Source of the DNA: Halomicronema sp. CCY15110
GTDB lineage: Bacteria; Cyanobacteriota; Cyanobacteriia; Phormidesmidales; Phormidesmidaceae
NCBI RefSeq assembly: GCF_016888165.1
Contig: NZ_JACSWC010000423.1
Coordinates: 1-55,142, forward strand
Length of the DNA: 55,142 nt
Direction: 5' to 3'
Part shown: piece after piece, positions 2,135 to 53,153 of the stretch
Numbering within the stretch: position 1 is the first letter of the stretch
Layout: every line of letters starts with the position of its first letter
The notes under the pieces: generated by a model
The model's database searches: none
What the model was told of the DNA's origin: nothing
The model's input: the letters and a program-made list of their open reading frames with translations, nothing else
Made by a program: the position numbers and the translations under genes

Positions 2135-3880
2135 ATGGACGACAAGAATGCCTTGCCAAACAATATCTATGCTATGTTTCTAGGGCTCTTGTCCTACCAA
2201 ATTGCGTTGTTACCTGCGTCTCAAAGTTCTATGTTGCATTCTCTACGTTGTCCGAATCAGCTTCGGACTTGGTTTAAAAAAACGATCGCGATCGCGATCA
2301 CAGTCACGTTCCTCTTCGTGGGCAACGTGCCCTGGGGCCGCGCTGCGATCGCGGCCAGCTATTCATCCTATGGGCAGGCCAAAGCGGCCACGGCCTCAAC
2401 CGATAAACCCAACATCGTTGTCATTTGGGGTGACGACATCGGCCAGAGCGATGTCAGCGCTTACACCAAAGGGCTTATGGGCTTCCGCACCCCCAACATC
2501 GATCGCGTGGCCGATGAGGGCATGCTATTTACCGACTACTACGCCGAACAAAGCTGCACCGCTGGCCGTTCGGCCTTTATCACCGGCCAAAGCGTTTTTC
2601 GTACGGGGTTGAGCAAAGTCGGCTTGCCAGGGGCAGACTTAGGCCTCAGAGCCGAAGATCCGACGATTGCGGAACTGTTGAAAGAGCAGGGCTACGCCAC
2701 GGCGCAGTTTGGCAAAAATCACCTGGGTGATAAAGATGAGTTTTTGCCGACCAACCATGGTTTTGATGAGTTTTACGGCAACCTCTATCACCTGAATGCG
2801 GAAGAAGAGCCGGAACTGCCGGATTATCCCGACCCCGAAGAATTTCCCAACTTTGCCAAAAACTTTGGCCCCCGGGGTGTGATTCATAGCTTTGCCGATG
2901 GCCGCATCGAAGATACTGGCCCGCTGACCAAAAAGCGGATGGAAACCATTGATGACGACATCGCCGATCGCGCCGCTGCATATGTCAAACAGCAGGCCGC
3001 AACGGACGAGCCCTTCTTCTTGTGGACGAACTTTACCCACATGCACTTCCGCACCCACCCCAAACCTGAAAGTGTGGGGCAGTCGGGGCGTTGGCAGTCG
3101 CCTTACCACGACACCATGATCGATCATGACAAAAACGTGGGTCAGGTGTTGGATGCCCTTGACGAGGCGGGCATTACGGACAACACCATCGTCATTTACA
3201 GCACCGACAACGGACCGCACATGAATACCTGGCCCGATGCCGCCATGACCCCCTTTCGGGGCGAAAAGGATACGGGTTGGGAAGGCGCTTTCCGCGTGCC
3301 CTTTATGGTGCGTTGGCCGGGGCACATTGAAGCCGGCAGCGTGTCTAACGACTTTATGTCACACCTGGACTGGCTACCGACCTTTTTGGCCGCCGCCGGT
3401 GCTCCGGATGTGAAAGAGCAATTGCTGACCGGCTATAAAGCTAACGGCAAGCGGTTTAAGGTGCATTTAGACGGCTATAACTGGCTGCCCTACCTCACGG
3501 GGGAAACCACCGAAGCGCCTCGTGATGAGTATTTCTATTTCTCGGATGACGGTGACCTGTTGGCAATGCGCTATGACAACTGGAAGGTGCATTTTGCGCA
3601 GCAACGGGAAGCGGGCACTCTAGCGCTGTGGGGTGAGCCGTTTGTCGCCACGCGCATCCCCTGGTTGTACAACCTCCGCACGGATCCTTATGAGAAGGCC
3701 ACCATTACCTCCAATACCTATTGGGATTGGTATGTGGATCATGTGTACCTATTGCTGCCAGCACAGAAGTTTGTGGGTCAGTTTTTGGCCACGTTCAAAG
3801 ACTATCCACCGCGTCAAAAGGCGGCCAGCTTCACGATTGACGATGCCCTAGAGCAGCTACAGAAGTCGCCTAGTAGCTAG
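2135..3880 (+). CDS. Secreted type I sulfatase (arylsulfatase family)
   Basis: A 581-residue sulfatase that would hydrolyse sulfate esters outside the cytoplasm. The maturation signature SCTAGRSAFITGQ puts Cys141 in the C-x-A-x-R context that FGE converts to formylglycine. Metal and active-site elements are present: IWGDD (Asp100-101), GKNHLGD (Lys194, His196), STDNGPH (Asp358, Asn359) and RGEKDTGWEG (Lys378). A hydrophobic stretch at residues 50-67 after basic residues, then AAIAAS, looks like a signal peptide; an ATG at 2231 would place it at the true N-terminus, so the real start may be there. The matching maturase gene lies at 14612-15706. Substrate unknown. Confidence 0.9.
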   Translation: MDDKNALPNNIYAMFLGLLSYQIALLPASQSSMLHSLRCPNQLRTWFKKTIAIAITVTFLFVGNVPWGRAAIAASYSSYGQAKAATASTDKPNIVVIWGDDIGQSDVSAYTKGLMGFRTPNIDRVADEGMLFTDYYAEQSCTAGRSAFITGQSVFRTGLSKVGLPGADLGLRAEDPTIAELLKEQGYATAQFGKNHLGDKDEFLPTNHGFDEFYGNLYHLNAEEEPELPDYPDPEEFPNFAKNFGPRGVIHSFADGRIEDTGPLTKKRMETIDDDIADRAAAYVKQQAATDEPFFLWTNFTHMHFRTHPKPESVGQSGRWQSPYHDTMIDHDKNVGQVLDALDEAGITDNTIVIYSTDNGPHMNTWPDAAMTPFRGEKDTGWEGAFRVPFMVRWPGHIEAGSVSNDFMSHLDWLPTFLAAAGAPDVKEQLLTGYKANGKRFKVHLDGYNWLPYLTGETTEAPRDEYFYFSDDGDLLAMRYDNWKVHFAQQREAGTLALWGEPFVATRIPWLYNLRTDPYEKATITSNTYWDWYVDHVYLLLPAQKFVGQFLATFKDYPPRQKAASFTIDDALEQLQKSPSS

Positions 3881-4049: not shown

Positions 4050-4886
4050 ATGACTGAAATCATCGCTGTGTTAGCAAATCTGGCGACGTTGATCTTTGTG
4101 ATCAGCAGCATGTTGGCGCTGGGATTGAGCCTGACGGTCAAGCTGATTCTGGCTCCCCTCGCCAATGTCAACCTGGTGGCGCGAGCCCTGGGCGTCAATT
4201 TTGTGCTGGTGCCGCTGGTGGCTTTTGGGTTGAAAACGGTCATACCGCTAGAGCCGTCTTTGGGTATTGGTTTAATGTTGCTGGCCACGGCTGCTGGCGC
4301 GCCCTTTTTGCCGAAACTGGCGCAGGCAGCCAAGGCCGATGTCGCCTTTAGCGTGGGGCTGATGGTGCTGCTGATGGTCGTTACCGTCGTGTATGTGCCA
4401 GTGGTGTTGCCGCTATTGCTGCCAGGAGTTTCGGTCAATCCTCTGGAGATTGCCCGATCACTCATTATTTTGATGTTGTTGCCGTTGGCAATCGGCCTCG
4501 TGATCAAAGCTCGCTATGCCGAGATCGCCAGCTCTCTGCAACCCCATATGGCTCAAGCTTCGACAGTCAGCTTGCTCGCGGTGTTGGTGTTAATGCTGGT
4601 GCTGAACTTTGACACCATGGTTGGGGCGATCGGTAGCGGGGCCATGATTGTCGCCATTCTATTTATCTTGATTTCACTGGCCCTCGGCTACTGGTTGGGG
4701 CCCACGGCAGGCACTCGACCGGTGCTGGGGCTGGGCACTGCACAGCGCAATATTGCGGCCGCCATGGTGGTGGCTACGGGCAACTTTGGCGACGATCCCA
4801 ATGTCTTGACCATGATTTTAGTCGGGGCGGTGTTAATGCTCGTGATTCTGATGCCGCTGGCCGGGGAGCTGGGCCGACGTGCTTAG
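4050..4886 (+). CDS. BASS-type (bile acid:sodium symporter family) transporter
   Basis: A 278-residue inner-membrane protein with about nine hydrophobic segments and almost no soluble part. The layout and segments such as ATAAGAPFLPKLAQ and GTAQRNIAAAMVVA match the BASS fold, where the second motif lies in the crossover helices that bind sodium and substrate. BASS members carry organic anions, including sulfated steroids, with sodium. It follows the sulfatase by 169 bp on the same strand. Its transporter domain resembles that of the fusion protein at 13143-14612, so the block holds two diverged copies. Substrate unknown; an organic or sulfonated anion is a guess from context. Confidence 0.8.
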   Translation: MTEIIAVLANLATLIFVISSMLALGLSLTVKLILAPLANVNLVARALGVNFVLVPLVAFGLKTVIPLEPSLGIGLMLLATAAGAPFLPKLAQAAKADVAFSVGLMVLLMVVTVVYVPVVLPLLLPGVSVNPLEIARSLIILMLLPLAIGLVIKARYAEIASSLQPHMAQASTVSLLAVLVLMLVLNFDTMVGAIGSGAMIVAILFILISLALGYWLGPTAGTRPVLGLGTAQRNIAAAMVVATGNFGDDPNVLTMILVGAVLMLVILMPLAGELGRRA

Positions 4887-6601: not shown

Positions 6602-7237
6602 ATGATGAAACGACGAGCGGCCCGCAACGGTGGCCTCCTGCAAGGGGGCAACGTGGGCGCTACACCTCAACCTCCAGTGGCGGACTTAGCCGGGAACGAT
6701 CGCCGCGCCGCCTTGCAAAATTTGCAGCAGTCGGCGGCTCAACGTATTGGCACCCGCTTCAAGATGCGGGAACGGTTGTTTAGCTTTGGCGATGACTTTT
6801 TCATCACGAATGAGCGCAACGAAAAAGTCGTTAAAGTCGATGGCAAACTCCTGCGGGTGCGGCAAACTCTAATCTTTGAAGACATGCAGGGCCGTGAGCT
6901 TTACACCATCAAAGCCAAGTTGATCGATATTCGCGAAACGATGGTGATTAAGCGGCCCAATGGCGATCGCGCGGCGGTCGTTCACAACGCCCTCATTACG
7001 CCCCTCCGCGATCGCTGGCAAATCAACATCCCCGGTGGCGAGGATTTGATCGCCCAGGGCAATATCCTGCAACACGAATACTCGATTCGGAAAAAAGGCG
7101 AGCGGCGGCCAATCGCCGTGATTTCCAAAAAATGGTTTCGGATCCGAGACACCTATGGCGTCGAGCTAGAGAGCGCCTTTGATGCCCCGTTGGTGTTGGC
7201 CATTACGGTCACGATTGACCTGATGGCCCATGCCTAA
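6602..7237 (+). CDS. LURP-one-related (Tubby-like fold) protein
   Basis: 211 residues. After a 55-residue polar leader, the LURP-one core begins at RFKMRERLFSFGDDFFI and continues through VVKVDGKLLRVRQTLIF, ELYTIKAKLIDIRETMVI and VISKKWFRIRDTYGVEL, the pattern of the closed beta-barrel seen in LOR and scramblase-like proteins. Such proteins may bind membrane lipids; the bacterial role is unsettled. AGGAG at 6590-6594 sets the ATG at 6602. It is followed 48 bp later by a DUF6325 gene, a companion also seen elsewhere in this window beside a SHOCT protein. Confidence 0.8.
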   Translation: MMKRRAARNGGLLQGGNVGATPQPPVADLAGNDRRAALQNLQQSAAQRIGTRFKMRERLFSFGDDFFITNERNEKVVKVDGKLLRVRQTLIFEDMQGRELYTIKAKLIDIRETMVIKRPNGDRAAVVHNALITPLRDRWQINIPGGEDLIAQGNILQHEYSIRKKGERRPIAVISKKWFRIRDTYGVELESAFDAPLVLAITVTIDLMAHA

Positions 7238-7285
7238 AGCCACCGCCTCATCATTTGTTACTGACTTTCAACGGAAGCTTGCGAC

Positions 7286-8086
7286 ATGAATATTGGACCG
7301 TTACAACTGGCCGCGATCGCCTTTGATAACCCCACCTTCAAAGGCGAGATCTTGGCAGAACTGGATGCCGTGCGCGGGCGGGGCGTCATTCGCCTGATTG
7401 ACTTGCTCTTTATCTATCGGGACGCCACGGGCGATGTCACCGTCATGACCGACACCGACGTCGAGGCCGCCGACCTGGCTGACTATGGCGAGGTGCTCAG
7501 TCCGCTACTGGGCCTGGGCGATAGTCGCGCCGCTGAGATGAACGGCACCTCGGTGGATCATGGGTATGGCCTCTCGTTAGATGAGATTCGCGGCGTGGTG
7601 GCGCAAATGCCGCCGGACTCCGCCTTGGCGCTCGTGCTGTTTGAACATCGCTGGGCGGGGGGGTTAGCCGCTGCTGTCCGCGAGGCCGGGGGACAGCTGC
7701 TGGCCCAGGGCATTCTCACCCGCGAGGCCGTGCTCATGGTGGGAAGTGAACTGGCGGCGATCGCCGAAGCCGAGCAGGTCATCGCCACCACCGAAGCCCT
7801 GAAAGGCGCGGCTGTGCTCGACGCCCTGGCCTTTACCGAAGCAGCAGCCGAAGCCGAAGCGTTGATGGCCGACGAGTTGGCGACCTCGGCCATGGCGGCG
7901 GAAACGCTCCGCACGTTGATCGCGGCAGGCGTGGTGGACGACACCGAAATCGAAACAGCCATCCTGGCCCTGGTCGCCGGGGGGCTACTCGCGCCAGACC
8001 TGGTTGCCGATGCTCTAGATCAGGCCGATAGCATCATGGCCGCGATTGAAGAAACGATCGCCGCCCAAGCGAGGGCCGAGACTTAG
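7286..8086 (+). CDS. DUF6325 family protein, long form
   Basis: 266 residues. The first 145 form the DUF6325 domain: GPLQLAAIAFDNPTFKGEI, GVIRLIDLLFIYRDATGDV and SALALVLFEHRWAGGLAAA correspond to the same blocks in the paralogue at 31355-31789. The extra C-terminal 110 residues are rich in Ala and Glu and probably helical, ending in a short helical domain (AAGVVDDTEIETAILALVAG) reminiscent of SHOCT-like tails. Function unknown. No membrane segment is seen, so it is probably cytoplasmic. The same-strand neighbours suggest a shared transcript with the LURP-one and MarC genes. Confidence 0.75.
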   Translation: MNIGPLQLAAIAFDNPTFKGEILAELDAVRGRGVIRLIDLLFIYRDATGDVTVMTDTDVEAADLADYGEVLSPLLGLGDSRAAEMNGTSVDHGYGLSLDEIRGVVAQMPPDSALALVLFEHRWAGGLAAAVREAGGQLLAQGILTREAVLMVGSELAAIAEAEQVIATTEALKGAAVLDALAFTEAAAEAEALMADELATSAMAAETLRTLIAAGVVDDTEIETAILALVAGGLLAPDLVADALDQADSIMAAIEETIAAQARAET

Positions 8087-8211
8087 GGAGCGTCATCCAT
8101 GCAGTGCAGACATCTTGCCGGCGCGGCTTTTCCGCGCCCGCACTCTCCAACTCCCGGAACGACCGTCAGCGTGCCAAATGGCCTGTTCGTATCTTGTTAA
8201 GGATTGAAAGT

Positions 8212-9114
8212 ATGAGTAAAAGCCGTCACCAGATTGCTCCCGCTATCACGGCGGATGCCAGGTCGACCCGGGTACTCAGCCGCTGGAGTCGGCCCAAGCA
8301 GCCCTCACGACCGGTCATCATTGTGGGGGTAGCCGCGATGCTCGTGGCCATGATGGCGACTACCGCCTTGGCCGAGATCGCGGATGTTCCGATGTTGGTG
8401 CAAGACGGCGTCACCCCACTACGGCCTAACATGTGGGTGATCGCGGAAGAAGTCGCCCAAGAAAATTTTGCCGAGCAGTTTGGCAGCTTCAATCTCTTTA
8501 TTATTTTCTTTGTGACCTTGGGGCCGCTCAAAGTGATTCCGACCTTTCTCCAGGTGACTTGCCAGGCCGACCGAACCCTCAAGCGACAACTGGCCTGGCG
8601 CAGCACCGCCATGGCCAGCTTTATGGCGTTGGTCGTCGTCCTGATCGGGCAAAACCTGCTGCGGATTTGGCAAATTCAATTACCGGCGTTGATGATTGCC
8701 GGGGGCATTTTGCTCTCCCTGGTGGCCCTCCGGCTGATTTTGGCCCAATACGCCGTGGGCGAATCGGCTACGACCGCCTACGATACGCCGGGGCTGCATT
8801 TAGCCATGACGCCGCTGGCCTTTCCGGCCATTTTGCCCCCCTTCGGCATCGCAATCGCCCTGATGTTGATGGTGCTCTCCACCAATCTGGGGTTCAGCCC
8901 GACCACCCTGATTCTGCTGTTGCTGTTAGTAATGGCCCTGAATTTGGTCTCCATGCTCGCCGCGGTTCCCATCATTAAATTCGTGCGGCCGGTGACGCTC
9001 AGAATCCTGGGATTTTCCTTGGGGGTCATGCAGTTTGCCTTGGGCATTCAATTTATTCTGTTTGCCTTGGAGCTTGAGATCCTGGTGCTGAAACTGTTGC
9101 TCCGGGGGCAATAG
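8212..9114 (+). CDS. MarC family integral membrane protein
   Basis: About 300 residues. A long N-terminal region with one hydrophobic segment (IIVGVAAMLVAMMATTALA, possibly a signal sequence) precedes a six-helix MarC domain. That domain begins FNLFIIFFVTLGPLKVIPTF, the usual motif for the first helix, and ends ILGFSLGVMQFALGIQFIL. MarC proteins are poorly understood; early links to multiple antibiotic resistance were not upheld. I place the start at ATG 8212; codons back to 8104 are open but have no supported start. The N-terminal extension is longer than in typical 200-residue MarC proteins. Confidence 0.8.
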   Translation: MSKSRHQIAPAITADARSTRVLSRWSRPKQPSRPVIIVGVAAMLVAMMATTALAEIADVPMLVQDGVTPLRPNMWVIAEEVAQENFAEQFGSFNLFIIFFVTLGPLKVIPTFLQVTCQADRTLKRQLAWRSTAMASFMALVVVLIGQNLLRIWQIQLPALMIAGGILLSLVALRLILAQYAVGESATTAYDTPGLHLAMTPLAFPAILPPFGIAIALMLMVLSTNLGFSPTTLILLLLLVMALNLVSMLAAVPIIKFVRPVTLRILGFSLGVMQFALGIQFILFALELEILVLKLLLRGQ

Positions 9115-9169
9115 AGTTACGACGCTCAAATCACCGGCAATATTCGTGTCTTTTGAGAACAGAGAGATC

Positions 9170-9745
9170 ATGACCGACCCGACTGCTCCTGGTACTGCCA
9201 GCATCATGCCCAGAATTGCCCAGGTCATTAAGTTAACCCGTTTAATTAGCGTCTTGGCCGTGTTGTCTTCCTTACTCGGTTCACTCGTGATGTTTTGGAT
9301 TGGCACAACCAACACCCTCCAGGCCGTCTTATTGGTGCTAGGCATGGAAGAGCCAGTTCTAGAAGGGAGCCGGATTGATCCGACGGAACTCGCGACGATT
9401 GAACTTTTAGAATGCCTGGATGATTTCCTGGTGGGGTTGGCGTTTTTATACTTTGCCTACGGCATCTACTCCCTATTTATTCAACTCGGATACAAAACGC
9501 CCGATGAGCCTTCCTGGCTGCGGGTCAGTAGTATCGGTACGCTCAAAAAAACCTTGCTGGAACTGTTGGTGGTGCTGTTGACGGTGATTTTTGTAAAAGG
9601 TCTGCTAGAGCGCCTGTCATTCCGGAGCCTGGAATGGACTTATTTGGTCATTCCCCTCTCAATTTTGGCGATCGCTGCTAGCACGCGTCTGCTGCGATTT
9701 GACAGCGAGGAATCGGTCTCAGCTACGGAGGAGGAAGCGAGATGA
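9170..9745 (+). CDS. YqhA family (UPF0114) membrane protein
   Basis: 191 residues with three or four membrane segments. The UPF0114 pattern is visible: an N-terminal helix (LISVLAVLSSLLGSLVMF), LECLDDFLVGLAFLYFAYGIY, and SIGTLKKTLLELLVVLLTVIF followed by FVKGLLE. Function unknown. A purine-rich ribosome site (AGAGAG) stands before ATG 9170. The stop overlaps the start of the MFS gene as ATGA, so the two are probably translated together. Confidence 0.82.
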   Translation: MTDPTAPGTASIMPRIAQVIKLTRLISVLAVLSSLLGSLVMFWIGTTNTLQAVLLVLGMEEPVLEGSRIDPTELATIELLECLDDFLVGLAFLYFAYGIYSLFIQLGYKTPDEPSWLRVSSIGTLKKTLLELLVVLLTVIFVKGLLERLSFRSLEWTYLVIPLSILAIAASTRLLRFDSEESVSATEEEAR

Positions 9746-11202
9746 CAAGTACAGCTTCCCCCATCTCCTTTGAAGAACGCCTGGATACCTCGCCCATTAC
9801 CCGCACCATGTGGTGGCTCTGGCTGCTGTCAGCGGGACTGATCGCCCTGGATGGCTTTGACTTTTTTATCATTGGGGTGGCGATTCCGCTCCTGCGGCAG
9901 GATTTTGGACTGGAGGCGGCGGCGATTGGGGCGGTGGCGACGGCAGCGATCGCGGGGTCCCTCGTCGGTTCCCTCACGTTGGGGCCAATCACCGACCGGG
10001 TAGGACGACAGCTGATGCTGATCGTCGACGTGGCGATTTTTGTCATTGCCACCACTGGCACCGCTCTGGCCTGGGATGCCACGTCGCTGATTGCCTTCCG
10101 CTTTTTGGTCGGCGTCGGTATCGGGGCTGATTACCCCATCAGCGTGTCTTACATCACGGAGAATGTGCCCGCTCGGTTTCGCGGTCGCATGGTGATTGGG
10201 GCCTTTACATTTCAGGCCGTCGGCGCGCTCCTCGGTGCCTTGACCGGGGTCGTTACCCTGTCGATCTTTAAAGTGCTCTATCCCGATACCGACCAGTTCG
10301 CCATTCAATATGCCTGGCGATGGATGCTCGGGGTGGGGGTCTTGCTGGCGGTGGCGGTGGCGATCGTCCGGCTCAGTTTCAGTCTCGAAAGCCCCCGCTA
10401 TTACATCAGTCGAGGCGAATATACCGAAGCCGCCACCGCCGCCACGCAACTGCTCGAAGCCCCCATCTCGATCACCCCAGAGCTAGAACCCCCCATCGCC
10501 ACGGAGCGTCCCACCTTTGGCGAATTATTGAATGCCCAGCATCGTCGCAGTACGCTGTTGGCCTCGGTACCCTGGTTTTTGCAAGACATTGCCACCTACG
10601 GGGTGGGCATCTTTACCCCCGCCATCATCGGTCTGTTGGCCTTTGCGAGCGAGCCCGATTTCCTCAGGCGAGAAATCGACTCGGCGACCGGATCGGCAAT
10701 CGTTGATCTGTTCCTGATTCTGGGATTCATCGGGGCACTGCTCCTGGTTGAAAAACTGGGCCGCATTCGGCTCCAAATCATTGGCTTTGTGGGCATGGCG
10801 GTGGGGTTAGGGATTCTCGCCTCCTCGAGTCTGCTCCCGCCAGGCAGTCGGGGCGAAATTGGGCTAGTGCTCAGCGGCTTTCTGATATTCAACTTATTGA
10901 TGAATGCGGGGCCGAATGCCACCACCTTTTTGCTGTCGGGGGAGGTGTTTCCCACGTCGCTCCGCGCAACGGGGGCGGGGTTTGCCGCTGCTTTTGCGAA
11001 GGCGGGGGCGGTACTTGGGACTTTCGGGTTACCGATTTTGCGGCAATCTTTGGGGGTGCCGTGGCTATTAATTGCACTTTCGGGATGTTGTTTGGTCGCG
11101 GCGTTGCTTACCTTTGTCTTACGGATTGAAACCACCGGGCGATCGCTGGAAACCGTCCAAGCGTTAGCGGCAGCACTGGAAACCGGTACCGGATCGACGT
11201 AG
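9742..11202 (+). CDS. MFS transporter, sugar/aromatic-acid porter type
   Basis: 486 residues with about twelve membrane helices. Family marks are LDGFDFFIIGVAIPLL in helix 1, the loop 2-3 motif GPITDRVGRQLMLI, RFLVGVGIGADYPISVSYI in helix 4, PARFRGR, and SGEVFPTSLRATGAGFAAA in the second half, equivalent to the PESxRG region of sugar porters. The central loop includes ESPRYYISRGEYTEA, as in metabolite:proton symporters. Substrate cannot be read from sequence. The start overlaps the YqhA stop by four bases. Confidence 0.85.
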   Translation: MTSTASPISFEERLDTSPITRTMWWLWLLSAGLIALDGFDFFIIGVAIPLLRQDFGLEAAAIGAVATAAIAGSLVGSLTLGPITDRVGRQLMLIVDVAIFVIATTGTALAWDATSLIAFRFLVGVGIGADYPISVSYITENVPARFRGRMVIGAFTFQAVGALLGALTGVVTLSIFKVLYPDTDQFAIQYAWRWMLGVGVLLAVAVAIVRLSFSLESPRYYISRGEYTEAATAATQLLEAPISITPELEPPIATERPTFGELLNAQHRRSTLLASVPWFLQDIATYGVGIFTPAIIGLLAFASEPDFLRREIDSATGSAIVDLFLILGFIGALLLVEKLGRIRLQIIGFVGMAVGLGILASSSLLPPGSRGEIGLVLSGFLIFNLLMNAGPNATTFLLSGEVFPTSLRATGAGFAAAFAKAGAVLGTFGLPILRQSLGVPWLLIALSGCCLVAALLTFVLRIETTGRSLETVQALAAALETGTGST

Positions 11203-11241: not shown

Positions 11242-11655
11242 ATGGCGTGGTTAATACATATTGAGGAGTTTTTCTTTGTCCTAGCCGAGGTGGGCCAGGT
11301 CTTGCTAGAGGCGATCGCCATTCTCTGCATATTTATTGGCATTTTGACCACGGCTCAATTGGTCATCAAGCTCCTGCGGCGTCGCCAAGGTGTCCCGTTT
11401 CCCTTCCTGCAAGTGCGCCTCAGATTTGGCCTCTGGCTGGCGATGGCATTGGAATTTCAGCTCGGGGCCGATGTTCTCACGACCACCATTTCTCCGGGGC
11501 GTGAAGAACTGACTCGGCTCGCCGTGATTGCGGTGATTCGGACCTTTTTAAACTACTTCCTGAATAAAGAAATGGAGACCCAAGTAGAACTGCGAGAGCA
11601 GGCTCGAAAGCATAATTATCAAAGTTTGTTAGCGAATGGGCCTGAGAGTGAATGA
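11242..11655 (+). CDS. DUF1622 membrane protein
   Basis: 137 residues with three hydrophobic segments. The DUF1622 core is visible as LLEAIAILCIFIGILTTAQL, then FGLWLAMALEFQLGADVL and TRLAVIAVIRTFLNYFLNKE, followed by a charged tail. Function unknown; members are often next to small stress-related membrane proteins. It follows the MFS gene by 39 bp and overlaps the next DUF202 gene by four bases, so it belongs to the same transcript. Confidence 0.82.
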   Translation: MAWLIHIEEFFFVLAEVGQVLLEAIAILCIFIGILTTAQLVIKLLRRRQGVPFPFLQVRLRFGLWLAMALEFQLGADVLTTTISPGREELTRLAVIAVIRTFLNYFLNKEMETQVELREQARKHNYQSLLANGPESE

Positions 11656-12044
11656 CCATGCAAAATCCATACCCTCCCAATCCCCAGCCGGAACTGGCTC
11701 GCGAGCGTAATCGCATTGCCGCCGATCGCTCGCTGCTGTCATTTATTCGCAGTAGCGTCACTCTGATCAGCATTGGCGTAGGGATCAATCAAGTTTCCAG
11801 CATTTTTGTGCCGATTGTGTCGTACCTCGGCTATTGGATCTACCTGCTAAGCGTTTTGATGGTGGGGGTCGGCGTCATTACCCTCGTCTTTGCGGCCCAC
11901 GATTATCGAGGCGAGCTCAAACGTCTGCAACAGCCAGAGTACTATTTCACGCCGCGCTGGTCGCTTGGGGGCGTTACCGGGTGGATTATTCTGGTGGCTG
12001 GTTTATTGACGCTTCTACGGCTATTGCGAACGCCCGTGTATTGA
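11652..12044 (+). CDS. DUF202 (YidH-like) membrane protein, copy 1
   Basis: About 130 residues. The DUF202 signature starts at ELARERNRIAADRSLLSFIR, with Arg at seven-residue spacing, and continues into three membrane helices. The start could be ATG 11652, overlapping the DUF1622 stop, or ATG 11658; the GAGAG at 11644-11648 is better spaced for the second. Function of DUF202 proteins is unknown. This is the first of four DUF202 domains within 3 kb. Confidence 0.82.
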   Translation: MTMQNPYPPNPQPELARERNRIAADRSLLSFIRSSVTLISIGVGINQVSSIFVPIVSYLGYWIYLLSVLMVGVGVITLVFAAHDYRGELKRLQQPEYYFTPRWSLGGVTGWIILVAGLLTLLRLLRTPVY

Positions 12045-12138: not shown

Positions 12139-12543
12139 CTACAAAAGCAAGGTGATGACCACCAATCCCAAGATCCCACTCAGGATTACCCCCAGGACAA
12201 CAAAGTGATTCAGCCGCGACACCGACTGCAGAACATAGTCTTCGCGCTCCAGCGATTTAACTTCCAAGCGGTGCTGAACCAATGCCAATGCCAGCAGCGC
12301 CGTGCCCAGTGCAATGAACGCAAGGCTGATGGTATGAGTCAGCGCTTCTCGCTGCAATGGATCCGTGTCCGGCAGCTGTTGGCGTACCCCTTGATAAACG
12401 CGATCAATGGCGACCCCAAAGCCAATCAGCGTGAGCGATTGGCCGATCCAGGCATTCATGGTGCGTTCTGCCGCCGCACGGTTTCGTTCTTTGGCCAACT
12501 CGTTGTTGGTGCCAAACAGCTTGGGGGGTTGATCAGAGCTCAC
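12139..12543 (-). CDS. DUF202 membrane protein, copy 2 (opposite strand)
   Basis: 134 residues with the DUF202 helix NELAKERNRAAAERTMNAWI followed by TLIGFGVAIDRVY and two further membrane helices. It starts with GTG at 12543 behind AGGAGAG near 12554. It is the only minus-strand gene in a 13.6-kb plus-strand block and is convergent with copy 1 and divergent from copy 3. This suggests a local inversion or an independent promoter. The usual third Arg of the signature is replaced by Gly (WIGQS). Confidence 0.82.
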   Translation of the reverse strand: MSSDQPPKLFGTNNELAKERNRAAAERTMNAWIGQSLTLIGFGVAIDRVYQGVRQQLPDTDPLQREALTHTISLAFIALGTALLALALVQHRLEVKSLEREDYVLQSVSRLNHFVVLGVILSGILGLVVITLLL

Positions 12544-12641
12544 GGGGCTAGTCTCTCCTACTGGTGACGATGCCGATACTTGGGTGTATTCTCCGCGCTT
12601 CGTTCAGTGTTCGTTTATTGTTTAACAAAAATATTGCTGTT

Positions 12642-13052
12642 ATGAGTGATGTAAATTCTACCCCTCACGTGCCGAACCCGGGGACTGAACTCGCCAAGGA
12701 GCGGAATCGCGCGGCTGAAGAGCGGACGCTAATGGCTTGGATTCGCACCGCTCTGGCGCTGATTGGTTTCGGCTTTGGTATTGACAGTATCGTCGCGGCG
12801 ATTCAACAGGCTTTAGGCGACGCCGTGAACCCAGCACGCCTGACGCGCCTCTTGGGACTCGCCTTTGTCGCCTTAGGCACCTTCGCCATGCTTTATGCCG
12901 CGATCGATCATCGTCACCAGCTACAGCGCATTCAACGCAATGACTTAGTGTACGTATCGCGGCGATCGCCCGCTTTGATCGTCGCCTATGCCCTAGCCGT
13001 GATTGGCGGTTTAGCCTTTCTCAGTGTGCTGCTCAGTCCGTTACTGCGCTGA
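12642..13052 (+). CDS. DUF202 membrane protein, copy 3
   Basis: 136 residues. ELAKERNRAAEERTLMAWIR and TALALIGFGFGIDSIV are a textbook DUF202 start, with three Arg seven residues apart, followed by two membrane helices. ATG 12642 begins the conserved part; open codons upstream to 12564 read unlike the family. It stands 90 bp before the DUF202-BASS fusion and is most like that protein's DUF202 part. Confidence 0.84.
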   Translation: MSDVNSTPHVPNPGTELAKERNRAAEERTLMAWIRTALALIGFGFGIDSIVAAIQQALGDAVNPARLTRLLGLAFVALGTFAMLYAAIDHRHQLQRIQRNDLVYVSRRSPALIVAYALAVIGGLAFLSVLLSPLLR

Positions 13053-13142: not shown

Positions 13143-14612
13143 ATGACTGAACCTAACCAAACTCCGGCTTCGCATGAGCCCACGCCATCCCAGCCGCCCA
13201 GCAACAATGAACTCGCCATGCAGCGCACCGAAATGGCTCAGCAGCGTACGGGCCTGGCAGAACAACGTACCGAAATGGCCGAAAAGCGCACCGGCCTGTC
13301 GATTCAGCGCACCGACTTAGCCAGCGAGCGGAACGACCTCGCCGAGATTCGTACGGCCTTGGCCCGAGAACGGACACGCGCCGCCGCAGAACGCACTCTG
13401 ATGGCGTGGATTCGCACGGCCCTGTCCATGATCAGCTTTGGCTTTGGCATCGATCGCTTGTTCAAATATCTGGATCAAACCGCAACCAGCAGCGGCATCA
13501 ACGTGCTGACGGAAGAGCGGATCCTCGGGCTAAGTTTAATGTCGTTGGGGTTATTTACCCTGGTGGCAGCGATCATTAACCACTGGCGCATTCTCAAAAA
13601 TATTGAAACCGAAGAGTTTGAATACATGCCAGGGTGGTCACAGGGGTTGGTGGTGGCGGTGGTGCTGCTGTTTTTGGGATTGGCCGCCTTTATTCCATTG
13701 GTCATCAGCGGGGTGACGTTAGGCGAAGTGTTTACCCTCGATAGTCAGGTGTTGCAGACCTTAGCTGCCTTAACGATTTTCCTGCTCATGCTGACCTTAG
13801 GCGTCCAAACAGAACTGTCGGACATGGTCCAACTGTGGCGGCAACCGCAATTGCTCGTTCGGGCTCTCTTCGCGGCGTTGATCTTGTTTCCCATCGGGGC
13901 TAGCGTGATCGGCTACGTCTTATTGCAGGGCACGGCGGCGGCATTACCCGTGGGCCTGGGATTGGTGGTGTTGGCCTCTGCGCCGGGAGCCCCGCTGTTA
14001 ACCACACGGGCTAGTATGGCCGGGGGCAATGTGGCGATCGCCACCAGCTTGCAGGCAACCTTAGCGGCCCTAGCGGTGGTGATGACACCGCTGACATTGC
14101 TCATCTTCACGGCTATGTTTGCCAACGTTGAGGCCAGTAGCGACTTCCTCATCATTGCCAAACAGGTGTTAACCGTGCAGTTTTTACCGTTGGGCTTGGG
14201 GCTCGCGGTGCGTCGCTTCGGGGGCACGGCCGCCGCCAATATTGGGGACCTGCTCACCACCGTAGCCAACACGCTATTTATCGTGCTGGTGGTGTTCTTG
14301 CTCGGTCTTAGCTGGGTCTTACTGCCGACGGTGCCGTGGCGCGGGTTTGCCGTGATTCCCCCGGTGGTGCTGTGGGGATTGGCCTGTGGCCATCTGCTCG
14401 GCGGGCCAGACCTGGGAAATCGTTCGTCCATCGCGACTGGGGTGATTGCTCGTAACGCGGGGCTAGCGATATTTTTGCTGGCGGCCAATGGTGCCCCCCA
14501 ATCGATTCCCACCATCATTGCCTATATGGTGGTCGGGGCCATCACTGCCCTGCCTTACAACATCTGGATTAAACGCCAGCAGGCCGCAGCGGCGGTAGTT
14601 ACCACGGCCTAA
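13143..14612 (+). CDS. DUF202-BASS transporter fusion with Arg-heptad helix
   Basis: 489 residues in three parts. Residues 28-97 hold ten consecutive seven-residue units, each starting with Arg (Arg28, 35, 42, 49, 56, 63, 70, 77, 84, 91), typically R-T-x-x-A-x-x. The last three units are the normal DUF202 signature. Residues 92-190 complete the DUF202 helices. Residues 195-485 form a BASS-like transporter with about nine helices (ASAPGAPLLTTRASMAGG, then ATGVIARNAGLAIFLLA for the crossover). The long cationic amphipathic helix probably lies on the membrane or oligomerises. The two domain calls are good; this combination is not one I know. It overlaps the FGE start by one base, so co-translation is likely. 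Confidence 0.82.
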   Translation: MTEPNQTPASHEPTPSQPPSNNELAMQRTEMAQQRTGLAEQRTEMAEKRTGLSIQRTDLASERNDLAEIRTALARERTRAAAERTLMAWIRTALSMISFGFGIDRLFKYLDQTATSSGINVLTEERILGLSLMSLGLFTLVAAIINHWRILKNIETEEFEYMPGWSQGLVVAVVLLFLGLAAFIPLVISGVTLGEVFTLDSQVLQTLAALTIFLLMLTLGVQTELSDMVQLWRQPQLLVRALFAALILFPIGASVIGYVLLQGTAAALPVGLGLVVLASAPGAPLLTTRASMAGGNVAIATSLQATLAALAVVMTPLTLLIFTAMFANVEASSDFLIIAKQVLTVQFLPLGLGLAVRRFGGTAAANIGDLLTTVANTLFIVLVVFLLGLSWVLLPTVPWRGFAVIPPVVLWGLACGHLLGGPDLGNRSSIATGVIARNAGLAIFLLAANGAPQSIPTIIAYMVVGAITALPYNIWIKRQQAAAAVVTTA

Positions 14613-15706
14613 TGACAACTGCATGGAGAACTCTGGTGGCTTTTATGGTTAGACAACTGCTGGGTCGCTGCGTAGCGATTTCACAATCTGGGGCTCTGTG
14701 GGCGATCGCGGCGAGTTGCCTCCTCCTCGTTGGGGGCGAGTTTTTCGTTGGGTTGGGGGCGATCGTGATCGCCTCCCCGGCCCCCTGTCCCAGTGACATG
14801 GTGTACATCCCCAGCGGCACCTTCACCATGGGGTCTGACAACCCTGACTTTGTGGAAGAAAAAATCGCTGAGGATGTTACCGTCAGCAGCTTTTGCATCG
14901 AGCCCCACGAAGTCACCAATGCCCAGTTCGCCCAGTTTGTGGAGGCGACTGGCTACGTCACCGTCGCCGAGCGCCCCTTGTCGCCAGAGCAGTTCCCTGA
15001 CTTGTCGGCAGCCGAACGGGCACCGGGTTCCCTGGTGTTTACCCCACCCGAAGCGGGGATTCAGCAGGTCGCCTACCTGAGCTGGTGGCGCTGGCTACCG
15101 GGGGCCAACTGGCGGCATCCCTTTGGCCCCAATAGCGACGTTGAGGGCAAAGACAATCATCCCGTCGTCCACATCGCTTACGAAGATGCCGTCGCCTATG
15201 CCGACTGGGCCGATCGCCAACTGCCCACCGAAGCGCAGTGGGAGTATGCGGCTCGCGGCGGCAACGACGAGTGGACTTACACCTGGGGCGAACAATACTC
15301 TGCTCAGCAGGCCAACACCTGGCAGGGCATGTTTCCCTTTTTCAATACCAAGGCAGATGGGCACCTGGGCACTGCGCCCATCATGTCTTATCCGCCCAAT
15401 GACTATGGCCTCTACGACATGACTGGCAACGTGTGGGAACTCACCGCCACCTGGTTCACCCTAAACCATGACCTCATGGCCCATCAGCAAGACCCCAGTG
15501 GCCCCACTCAAGACGTGAGCTATGACCTCAAAAAGCCCATGGATGGAGCGATGCACGTCATCAAGGGAGGTTCTTATCTGTGTGCCAAAAACTACTGTAG
15601 TCGTTATCGTCCGGCGGCCCGCGAATCCCAGGCGTTGGATACCGGAACGACCCACGTCGGGTTCCGTCTAGTGCGCTCGGTCAATGACTCATCCGATTCA
15701 ATCTAA
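14612..15706 (+). CDS. Formylglycine-generating enzyme (sulfatase maturase)
   Basis: 364 residues with an N-terminal membrane segment or signal at about 27-54 and an FGE-sulfatase domain from 58 to the end. Family marks: DMVYIPSGTFTMGSD, EPHEVTNAQFAQFV, LPTEAQWEYAARGG, YDMTGNVWEL and GFRLVRS. The active-site pair is Cys324 and Cys329 in SYLCAKNYCSRYRPAAR, with the same five-residue spacing as true FGEs; many relatives in this superfamily lack it. FGE oxidises the Cys of C-x-[PA]-x-R sites to formylglycine using copper and oxygen. The sulfatase at 2135-3880 has such a site. The start overlaps the upstream stop (TAATG). Confidence 0.9.
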   Translation: MTTAWRTLVAFMVRQLLGRCVAISQSGALWAIAASCLLLVGGEFFVGLGAIVIASPAPCPSDMVYIPSGTFTMGSDNPDFVEEKIAEDVTVSSFCIEPHEVTNAQFAQFVEATGYVTVAERPLSPEQFPDLSAAERAPGSLVFTPPEAGIQQVAYLSWWRWLPGANWRHPFGPNSDVEGKDNHPVVHIAYEDAVAYADWADRQLPTEAQWEYAARGGNDEWTYTWGEQYSAQQANTWQGMFPFFNTKADGHLGTAPIMSYPPNDYGLYDMTGNVWELTATWFTLNHDLMAHQQDPSGPTQDVSYDLKKPMDGAMHVIKGGSYLCAKNYCSRYRPAARESQALDTGTTHVGFRLVRSVNDSSDSI

Positions 15707-51977: not shown

Positions 51978-53153
51978 ATGGCAAAATCCTCTCGTGAAAG
52001 TCTAATTCAAGCCGCTTTGGAACTCTTTTTAGAGCAGGGGGTTCATCAAACGACGACCCGCCAAATCGCCGATCGCGCGGGGGTCAATGAGGTGACCTTG
52101 TTTCGGAACTTTGGCAATAAATATGGCTTGTTGCAGGCTGTGCTGAATGCCGCCCCGACGTTTCGTGACTTGGGCGAAGGCTTGATGGAGCAAACGATTG
52201 CGACGAGCGATCGCCACCAAACGTTGAAAACCTACGCGGGGGAATGCTTGGCAGCCCTGGAGCAAGCCCCCGCGTTTGTGCGATCGCTGATTGGCGAAGC
52301 GGGGCAGTTTCCCGACGAAAATCGGCAAGCCCTCGGCCACCGCCTACAGGAAGCCAGCCAGTATGTGGCGCGATACTTAGAGCACACCATGCCCGCCCGC
52401 AACTTTGCCGCTGGTCAGCTATCGGGCTATCTGGGGGCGCTGCTCGTGGGGTACGTCGTCATCGAAGCCACCAGTGACGATCATGGACTCTGGACCAGCC
52501 GCGAAAATTTTTTGGATGGGTTGGTCGGGTTGCTGTTGGGGGAGACTTTAGCCTTTGAGTCTGATGCCGTGACAGACCCGCCCCCGGAGCCCGTACAAGA
52601 TTTACCCGCGCCCTGTGTACATCAAATCTTGACTCAGGCCAAAGCCGCGAGTTCACAAGATTACGCCCTCGCCTATCTGCTGTTAGCCGCCGGGTTAGAT
52701 CCGGCTGAGGTGGTGTCGGTGACGCGATCGCAGCACCTGAGCGCGAAGACTCAGCACACGCTTCAGGTAAGCGATCGTCAGGTGCCAATTAACCAGTGGA
52801 TTGGGGGGAAACGCTATGGCACCTACACCAGCAATCCGCTGACCAAATGGCTCAAAAGTCGTAAAGATGAGAGCCCCTGGCTGTTCATTCAAGCGGATGA
52901 TGACCCCGTTGGGCTCTCCGTAGAAGATATCGCCCAAAAATGGGCTGATTGGGCTCAAGCGCTGACCCTTTTTCCCCACTCTCATCCACGGCAGGCAAAA
53001 CCCACCTGGTGTGTGGAAATGCTAACGCGGGGAATGAGTGTGGAAAATCTGAGCCTGTTGTCGGGCTTGTCGTCCGCACAGTTGCAGCCCTATGTGCAGC
53101 GGGCGCGAGAAAAAGCGGCCTTGGAGGAAGCTCGACAGCTTGACCAAAAGTAG
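51978..53153 (+). CDS. TetR family regulator with integrase-like C-terminus
   Basis: 391 residues, almost twice the usual TetR length. Residues 1-60 are the TetR helix-turn-helix (LIQAALELFLEQGVHQTTTR, then QIADRAGVNEVTLFRNFGNK), and 60-200 a ligand-binding helical domain. The remaining 190 residues resemble a decayed tyrosine recombinase catalytic domain: ALAYLLLAAGLDPAEVVSVT is like box I but lacks its Arg, and CVEMLTRGMSVENLSLLSGL with PYVQRAREK is like the box II helix and final Tyr region. It is probably catalytically dead and used for DNA or protein contact. It faces desC across shared palindromes, so it probably controls desaturase expression. Confidence 0.8.
   Translation: MAKSSRESLIQAALELFLEQGVHQTTTRQIADRAGVNEVTLFRNFGNKYGLLQAVLNAAPTFRDLGEGLMEQTIATSDRHQTLKTYAGECLAALEQAPAFVRSLIGEAGQFPDENRQALGHRLQEASQYVARYLEHTMPARNFAAGQLSGYLGALLVGYVVIEATSDDHGLWTSRENFLDGLVGLLLGETLAFESDAVTDPPPEPVQDLPAPCVHQILTQAKAASSQDYALAYLLLAAGLDPAEVVSVTRSQHLSAKTQHTLQVSDRQVPINQWIGGKRYGTYTSNPLTKWLKSRKDESPWLFIQADDDPVGLSVEDIAQKWADWAQALTLFPHSHPRQAKPTWCVEMLTRGMSVENLSLLSGLSSAQLQPYVQRAREKAALEEARQLDQK

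Follow-up and report, generated by a model that had tools for sequence, protein, structure and literature searches.

An arginine-heptad DUF202–BASS fusion protein encoded in an arylsulfatase locus of a cyanobacterium

The 55,142-nucleotide stretch of Halomicronema sp. CCY15110 DNA analyzed here (contig NZ_JACSWC010000423.1; 'the window') contains a gene in which a DUF202 domain, preceded by a long run of arginine-led heptads, is joined to a transporter domain of the BASS family. The locus raises the question of what a ladder of arginines might do at the front of a transporter, and what such a transporter might carry. The gene and its parts are as follows (all on the plus strand):

13143–14612, plus: DUF202–BASS fusion protein of 489 amino acids (open reading frame and Pfam; counterparts in 10 other genomes)
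13224–13433, plus: ten Arg-led heptads, residues 28–97, the last three being the ordinary DUF202 motif (sequence and AF2)
13371–13595, plus: DUF202 domain (Pfam PF02656), residues 77–151
13746–14582, plus: BASS/SBF domain, about residues 202–480, probably nine membrane helices (Pfam PF01758 at 210–389)
14451–14453, plus: codon of R437, which aligns with ASBT Q264 (all 19 aligned relatives have Arg here)

Both domains score above their Pfam cut-offs within this single frame (DUF202, 59.4 bits against 23.4; SBF, 58.8 bits against 24.3), in agreement with an earlier interpretation made from the letters alone (the 'sequence-only reading'), which had described a DUF202 domain fused to a BASS-like transporter. 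Residues 1–20 are rich in proline, serine and threonine, and a third membrane helix is predicted after the DUF202 domain, at about residues 167–188. In a full-length AF2 model built with nine aligned sequences, residues 21–114 form one helix (block-mean pLDDT 71–90 over residues 21–110); a second model, of residues 21–197, again gave a single long helix, but with a pLDDT of 63 mid-helix. The heptads are modeled as running straight into the first membrane helix (TM1) in both cases. The BASS half of the full-length model has pLDDT values mostly of 34–50, which leaves the helix and DUF202 part usable and the BASS half unreliable; the count of nine helices in that domain is probable, and uncertain to the extent that the model is poor there.

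The fusion is not an artefact of sequencing or assembly; the sequence-only reading had named a sequencing artefact as one outcome that would overturn it. The fusion is present in 10 of the 63 family genomes searched (the Halomicronema genome itself, G001, G002, G245, G314, G330, G300, G192, G259 and G359, the last cut by a contig end) and, in a class sample of 388 genomes, in one member of another family (G332, 45% identical). G001 (83% identical), G002 (81%) and six further full-length family members (66–68%) all have an unbroken frame, and the fusion is a single CDS on the complete plasmid NZ_CP046157.1 of Leptolyngbya sp. BL0902, which the contig of G245 matches and where the protein is annotated merely as 'DUF202 domain-containing protein'. 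On that 93.5-kb plasmid the cluster (sulfatase, MFS transporter, DUF1622, DUF202, fusion, FGE) occupies positions 51996–79411 with a transposase nearby, and is possibly mobile. A scan of genome contigs with the fusion protein as query returned one locus only, from Nodosilinea sp. LEGE 07088 (L053 5522–6688; the same as G305, an eleventh family genome). In this variant an in-frame deletion has removed TM1 and TM2, so that four Arg heptads are joined directly to DUF202 TM3 and the BASS domain; the deletion is either natural or an error of assembly.

The arginines of the ladder lie at residues 28, 35, 42, 49, 56, 63, 70, 77, 84 and 91, verifying the ten units, and their coding positions, given by the sequence-only reading. 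In 200,000 shuffles of residues 21–95 the longest run of arginines at seven-residue steps was 7 (found 3 times), compared with the 10 observed. The eleven fusions have 10, 10, 10, 10, 9, 10, 9, 9, 12, 8 and (in G332) 5 units, that is, five with ten (including the window), three with nine, and one each with twelve, eight and five. The comparison among strains that had been suggested from the sequence therefore reveals changes in whole heptads, from 5 to 12. In the pre-TM1 units of ten of these proteins arginine is present in 77 of 77 and threonine in 75 of 77, the fifth place is Ala or Ser in all 77, and Leu or Met occupies its own fixed place in 66 (the rest being 10 Ala and 1 Phe).

The DUF202 proteins a, b and c encoded beside the fusion gene have 3, 2 and 3 arginines at heptad spacing, unfused cyanobacterial DUF202s have 2–4 such heptads, and 39 distinct DUF202s (from the class sample plus a few chosen matches) comprise 33 with three, 3 with four and 3 with two. 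The excess of heptads over both the three neighbors and ordinary DUF202 proteins, as claimed from the sequence, is thus confirmed. Several other cyanobacteria (L046, L064–L067) have a DUF202 gene next to a BASS gene without fusion, and these DUF202s have four heptads. The last three arginines of the ladder (R77, R84 and R91) form a triad entering TM1 that is present at all three places in 16 of 16 aligned DUF202s, and that is not universal to the family: DUF202 b of the window and E. coli YidG have two.

Growth of the helix by tandem duplication, the origin suggested in the sequence-only reading, is supported by the steps of whole heptads and by the periodicity of the DNA, in which TRF detects a 21-bp period (3.5 copies, 67% matches) and a 42-bp period (2.3 copies, 74%). 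The most similar pair of 21-base units in the window shares 16 of 21 bases, and this divergence indicates that the duplications are old. The codons of the heptad arginines vary (CGC 59, CGT 19, CGG 17, CGA 2), and synonymous changes outnumber replacement changes in all five genome pairs compared (32/5, 22/10, 25/10, 25/4 and 19/1), indicating that the array is old and has been kept by selection on the protein. Because glutamates offset the arginines, the net charge of helix residues 24–84 is only +2. The hydrophobic moment of the helix, with arginine counted, is 0.146 at 90 degrees against 0.112 at 102.9 degrees, without a coiled-coil peak; it peaks at the coiled-coil angle only with arginine set to zero (0.196).

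We next compared the DUF202 part with proteins of solved structure. A single-sequence search with fusion residues 21–197 against solved chains did not find Vtc1 or anything else meaningful. A profile of 16 DUF202s searched against all solved chains, in contrast, matched four Vtc1 sequences, with E values from 9.4e-5 to 2.7e-4, and no other chain gave an E value below 0.1. The resulting alignment places Vtc1 R31 on the second arginine of the triad (R84 of the fusion, the Arg of the ERT motif), hence K24 on R77 and N38 on the third. A Foldseek search with the N-terminal model gave VTC chains at all of ranks 1–10, but with weak E values (0.16–1.2), and VIA-align gave a VTC match with Z 11.1 and rmsd 2.8 over 102 aligned residues that is tied with BAR domains; with long-helix proteins crowding that list, the fold match by itself is not specific. 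The register of the VIA-align superposition, with residue 20 of chain 8i6v_C opposite model residue 53, is the same as that of the profile alignment.

Guan et al. (PMC9911596) describe the VTC channel as being formed by five TM1 helices, with a wall that includes K24/R31 of Vtc1, K698/R705 of Vtc3 and K622/R629 of Vtc4 (each pair seven residues apart) and a narrowest place ringed by R31, R709 and R629. They also report that channel mutants lost the vacuolar polyphosphate store, yet that synthesis in vitro increased with Vtc1 K24A/R31A. The register of the triad on Vtc1 implies that the seven extra units of the fusion repeat a pore-lining element in register. The membrane domains of Vtc1, Vtc3 and Vtc4 resemble the fusion in having a DUF202-type three-helix domain, with a long helix followed by two more membrane helices, and Vtc1 likewise has basic residues spaced by seven where TM1 begins. 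Unlike the fusion, Vtc1 pairs with SPX/polymerase subunits and is without a BASS domain, and the VTC chains lack the seven extra heptads, aligning only from model residue 53; conversely, no Pfam match to an SPX or polymerase (TTM) domain, which characterize Vtc3 and Vtc4, was found in the fusion protein. We consider it likely that the DUF202 part is VTC-like in nature.

The transporter half belongs to a recognizable family while departing from its best-known members. Like ASBT_NM, ASBT_Yf, NTCP and PanS, the fusion matches PF01758 above its cut-off; unlike them, it has DUF202 attached, and the side-chain sodium ligands of ASBT_NM are replaced in it. A family profile matches ASBT_Yf (7e-22 to 2e-21), ASBT_NM (4e-17) and NTCP (2e-15), whereas the NCBIfam TIGR00841 ('bass') and PanS models lie far below their cut-offs (55.1 bits against 326.3 for TIGR00841). 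The domain aligns to solved BASS proteins from their second helix. The topology of NTCP has nine transmembrane helices, and the start at the second helix of ASBT suggests that the BASS domain is probably of the same nine-helix type, with its N-terminus outside. A three-helix DUF202 domain with its own N-terminus inside would suit such an arrangement.

Seven positions that we take to be sodium ligands in ASBT_NM are replaced in the aligned fusion: Q77 by A245, S114 by L286, N115 by T287, S128 by A300, T132 by Q304, E260 by G433 and Q264 by R437. In both the ASBT_NM alignment and the family profile, the side-chain ligands of Na1 and Na2 expected for a sodium-coupled BASS symporter are therefore lacking. 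These replacements, together with the arginine at 437, suggest that the BASS domain may be sodium-independent or have altered coupling.

The neighborhood of the gene bears on the possible substrate. The following genes are encoded around the fusion in the window:

790–1752, minus: AraC-family regulator, next to the sulfatase
2135–3880, plus: arylsulfatase (PF00884) with a CTAGR active-site motif and a signal-like N-terminus (exported-looking)
4050–4886, plus: second SBF-family gene, adjoining the arylsulfatase; also matches SBF_like (PF13593) and has the same Arg at the R437 position
9742–11202, plus: MFS transporter (Sugar_tr), retained in the cluster of most relatives examined
11242–11655, plus: DUF1622 membrane protein, found also in Neorhizobium and Phyllobacterium sulfatase loci
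11652–12044, plus: DUF202 protein a, three heptad-spaced Arg
12139–12543, minus: DUF202 protein b, two heptad-spaced Arg
12564–13052, plus: DUF202 protein c, three heptad-spaced Arg; the true start is probably inside the ORF
14612–15706, plus: formylglycine-generating enzyme (FGE) family protein (PF03781) with a double-Cys motif, GGSYLCAKNYCSRYR, and a signal-like N-terminus

Genes for a LURP-one-related protein, MarC and UPF0114 lie at 6602–9745, some of them retained in relatives. The ATG of the FGE gene overlaps the stop codon of the fusion gene (TAATG), and the double-cysteine motif presumably represents the FGE active-site cysteines. The window thus contains what is expected of an organosulfate locus, an fGly-type sulfatase (the CTAGR protein) and a maturing enzyme (the double-Cys FGE) near a transporter. 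The cluster arrangement is retained in the family loci examined, and an FGE with the double-Cys motif adjoins the fusion gene in 10 of 10 of them (the window and L054–L062, the tenth, L062, being a variant with an internal deletion). In G332, whose fusion has five units, no FGE was seen in 11.6 kb.

Among the 33 genomes with the strongest matches to the BASS domain, a PF00884 sulfatase lies on the same contig no more than 15 kb from that match in 25; in the remaining eight, it is 15.4, 17.8 and 25.2 kb away in three and absent from the contig in five (G359, G114, G273, G343 and G363). All 33 encode a sulfatase somewhere in the genome, compared with 20 of 57 in an even class sample, and all 33 encode a DUF202, compared with 31 of 59 class-sample genomes, counts that do not constitute a significance test since the 33 genomes are related to one another. 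In 29 of the 33, a DUF202 is found either in the BASS match itself or no more than 10 kb from it. Matches that run from DUF202 to BASS across stop codons, as adjacent genes in the order of the fusion, were found in G358, G135, G190, G264 and G352, and the reverse order, with BASS before DUF202, in for example G261, G226 and G119.

A general association of DUF202 with sulfatases was considered and rejected, as only 2 of 38 DUF202 places in 28 sample genomes of other genera lie within 15 kb of one. The sulfatase link belongs to BASS (with DUF202) and not to DUF202 alone. Elsewhere in the Halomicronema genome, contig C254 has a BASS relative (35% identical) at a distance of 4.7 kb from another sulfatase, and on contig C88 a sulfatase and a further DUF202 are 9.6 kb apart. 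The assignment of the fusion gene to an arylsulfatase locus is probably correct, and is the firmest part of our interpretation.

Similar gene groups are found outside the cyanobacteria. A Phyllobacterium zundukense plasmid encodes, in a row, a DUF202, an arylsulfatase (in two pieces on different frames in that record), a BASS protein, an FGE-like frame and a DUF1622. On a plasmid of Paraburkholderia sp. 22B1P, an arylsulfatase and a radical-SAM/SPASM protein (by Pfam) lie beside a DUF202, with BASS directly after; the radical-SAM/SPASM gene resembles sulfatase maturases, and a gene of this kind carries the annotation 'anaerobic sulfatase maturase' in the relative AP028202.1. In Neorhizobium petrolearium a DUF202 protein (WP_037145520.1; L081 7893–8540) encoded beside two arylsulfatases has, like the fusion, ten Arg heptads, and DUF1622 and AraC genes in its locus. 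It differs in being unfused, with no BASS gene in the 16 kb annotated around it, and in having Ser where the fusion has Ala. The long helix is therefore not unique to the fusion, contrary to what had been supposed from the sequence. The Phyllobacterium and Microvirga relatives of this DUF202 have four units (the Microvirga gene with no sulfatase annotated nearby), which indicates that the Neorhizobium ladder expanded separately from the cyanobacterial one.

The E. coli K-12 yidF-yidG-yidH-yidJ-yidK region (3855114–3860116) likewise places DUF202-type genes, yidG (putatively of this type) and yidH, next to yidJ, for a putative sulfatase, and yidK, for a protein that is annotated only as a putative transporter and that we take to be an SSS-type symporter. 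Unlike the window it contains no fusion, and YidG and YidH have two and three arginines at heptad spacing. YidH appears in one study (PMC10299036) as a screening candidate for a D-alanine exporter that was not borne out by transport assay.

The arylsulfatase/FGE locus and the match to Vtc1 did not figure in the sequence-only reading, and they change how the protein is to be read. Our preferred interpretation, which is tentative and has chances as a whole somewhat below those of its parts, is that the fusion protein transports an anion as part of an organosulfate locus, and that its DUF202 part oligomerizes in a VTC-like manner and bears a cytosolic ladder of arginines. We infer the substrate, the oligomer and the orientation of the arginines. 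As in Vtc1, TM1 would be the element through which the DUF202 part oligomerizes. The heptad helix would prolong TM1 on the cytosolic side, forming a parallel supercoiled bundle whose Arg/Leu stripe faces inward. Rings of arginine, spaced every ~10 Å, would bind anions or direct their passage, whether sulfate, sulfate esters or a polyanion, and the attached BASS domain would move a small organic anion, perhaps without the classical coupling to two sodium ions, since Arg437 occupies their site. We further propose that 8–12 rings were kept in this lineage because a longer ladder better holds or orients anions or partner proteins. Of the separate elements, sulfate or a sulfate ester as the substrate falls just short of an even chance, and inward-facing rings a little further below it. 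The near-neutral charge of the helix, its ambiguous hydrophobic moment, the five-unit fusion of G332 and the lack of an FGE seen there, and the in vitro gain of K24A/R31A all count against this interpretation, as do the unspecific fold match to VTC, the unreliable model of the BASS half, the eight BASS genes with no sulfatase inside 15 kb and the rarity of sulfatases near sampled DUF202s.

The main rival to that interpretation, which we regard as unlikely while taking it seriously, is that the heptads are a coiled-coil spacer that fixes an oligomer or holds a partner (another DUF202 or the sulfatase system), with the arginines structural and making no contact with anions. A strict repeat that keeps Leu/Met and Ala/Ser in set positions, the three additional DUF202 genes in the cluster, the low net charge of the helix and the free variation of unit number from 8 to 12 within one family would all fit a spacer; it would be unusual, however, for a spacer to hold its arginine (77 of 77) more strictly than its Leu/Met position (66 of 77), and the same arginines line a channel in Vtc1. 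That lining, with the heptad-spaced basic residues shared with Vtc1 and a ladder long enough to suit a polymer, could also be read as a channel for polyphosphate or another polyanion as in VTC, in which case the fusion would couple polyanion handling to the transporter and the sulfatases would reflect sulfated polysaccharide rather than small esters. The fusion has neither an SPX nor a polymerase domain, however, and most sampled DUF202s stand away from sulfatases, and we consider this reading quite improbable.

On a straight helix, a strict seven-residue repeat shifts by about 20 degrees with each unit, and it is better suited to a supercoiled bundle than to a helix that lies flat. This geometry counts against one of the three functions suggested in the sequence-only reading. 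Sensing of membrane charge by a helix lying on the surface would be favored by a face on which Leu and Ala flank the arginines and by the adjacency of the helix to TM1, but ten strict units would wind around a straight helix and both AF2 models merge the helix with TM1; it is the weakest of those three ideas and, in our estimate, very improbable. Oligomerization fares better: it fits well because DUF202 resembles Vtc1, a subunit of a pentameric complex, with the oligomer itself inferred only. A link from other DUF202 proteins to transport, the third of those ideas, may exist, the cluster having three further DUF202 genes. The remaining reading, to which we give the least weight of all, is that replication slippage, without selection, extended an N-terminal tail that the protein tolerates. 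Copy number does differ among related genomes, and the 21- and 42-bp periodicity is what slippage would leave, but synonymous changes far exceed replacements, arginine is invariant in the 77 units, and the same lengthening is seen in the unrelated sulfatase-locus DUF202 of Neorhizobium.

DUF202 and BASS are both known families, whereas a description of the fusion, the arginine ladder or the gene module was not found in the literature searched (which included no preprints and few subscription journals). DUF202 together with bile acid likewise gave no match in that literature, some of the DUF202 matches being to longer names (DUF2023, DUF2027). The statement in the sequence-only reading that no transporter of this build had been described therefore stands within that literature.

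A bolder extension of the preferred interpretation, which we offer as speculation and judge rather improbable, is that some ten stacked arginine rings form a cytosolic tube or funnel on a VTC-like pore, an anion antenna that would store organosulfate or sulfate or guide it to or from a sodium-independent BASS carrier. A single polypeptide would then combine a channel and an elevator as a two-pore transporter. Ladder length would be a dial that evolution can turn, and arylsulfatase loci would have given rise to such a ladder at least twice.

DUF202 is a very widespread domain without a settled function in bacteria, and the fusion and its neighborhood tie it to BASS transporters and arylsulfatases. 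The register on Vtc1 provides a residue-level, testable idea for the role of the invariant DUF202 arginines, for which the natural heptad numbers of 5 to 12 form a ready-made length series. A BASS subfamily in which arginine replaces sodium ligands also bears on how sodium coupling is lost in secondary transporters.
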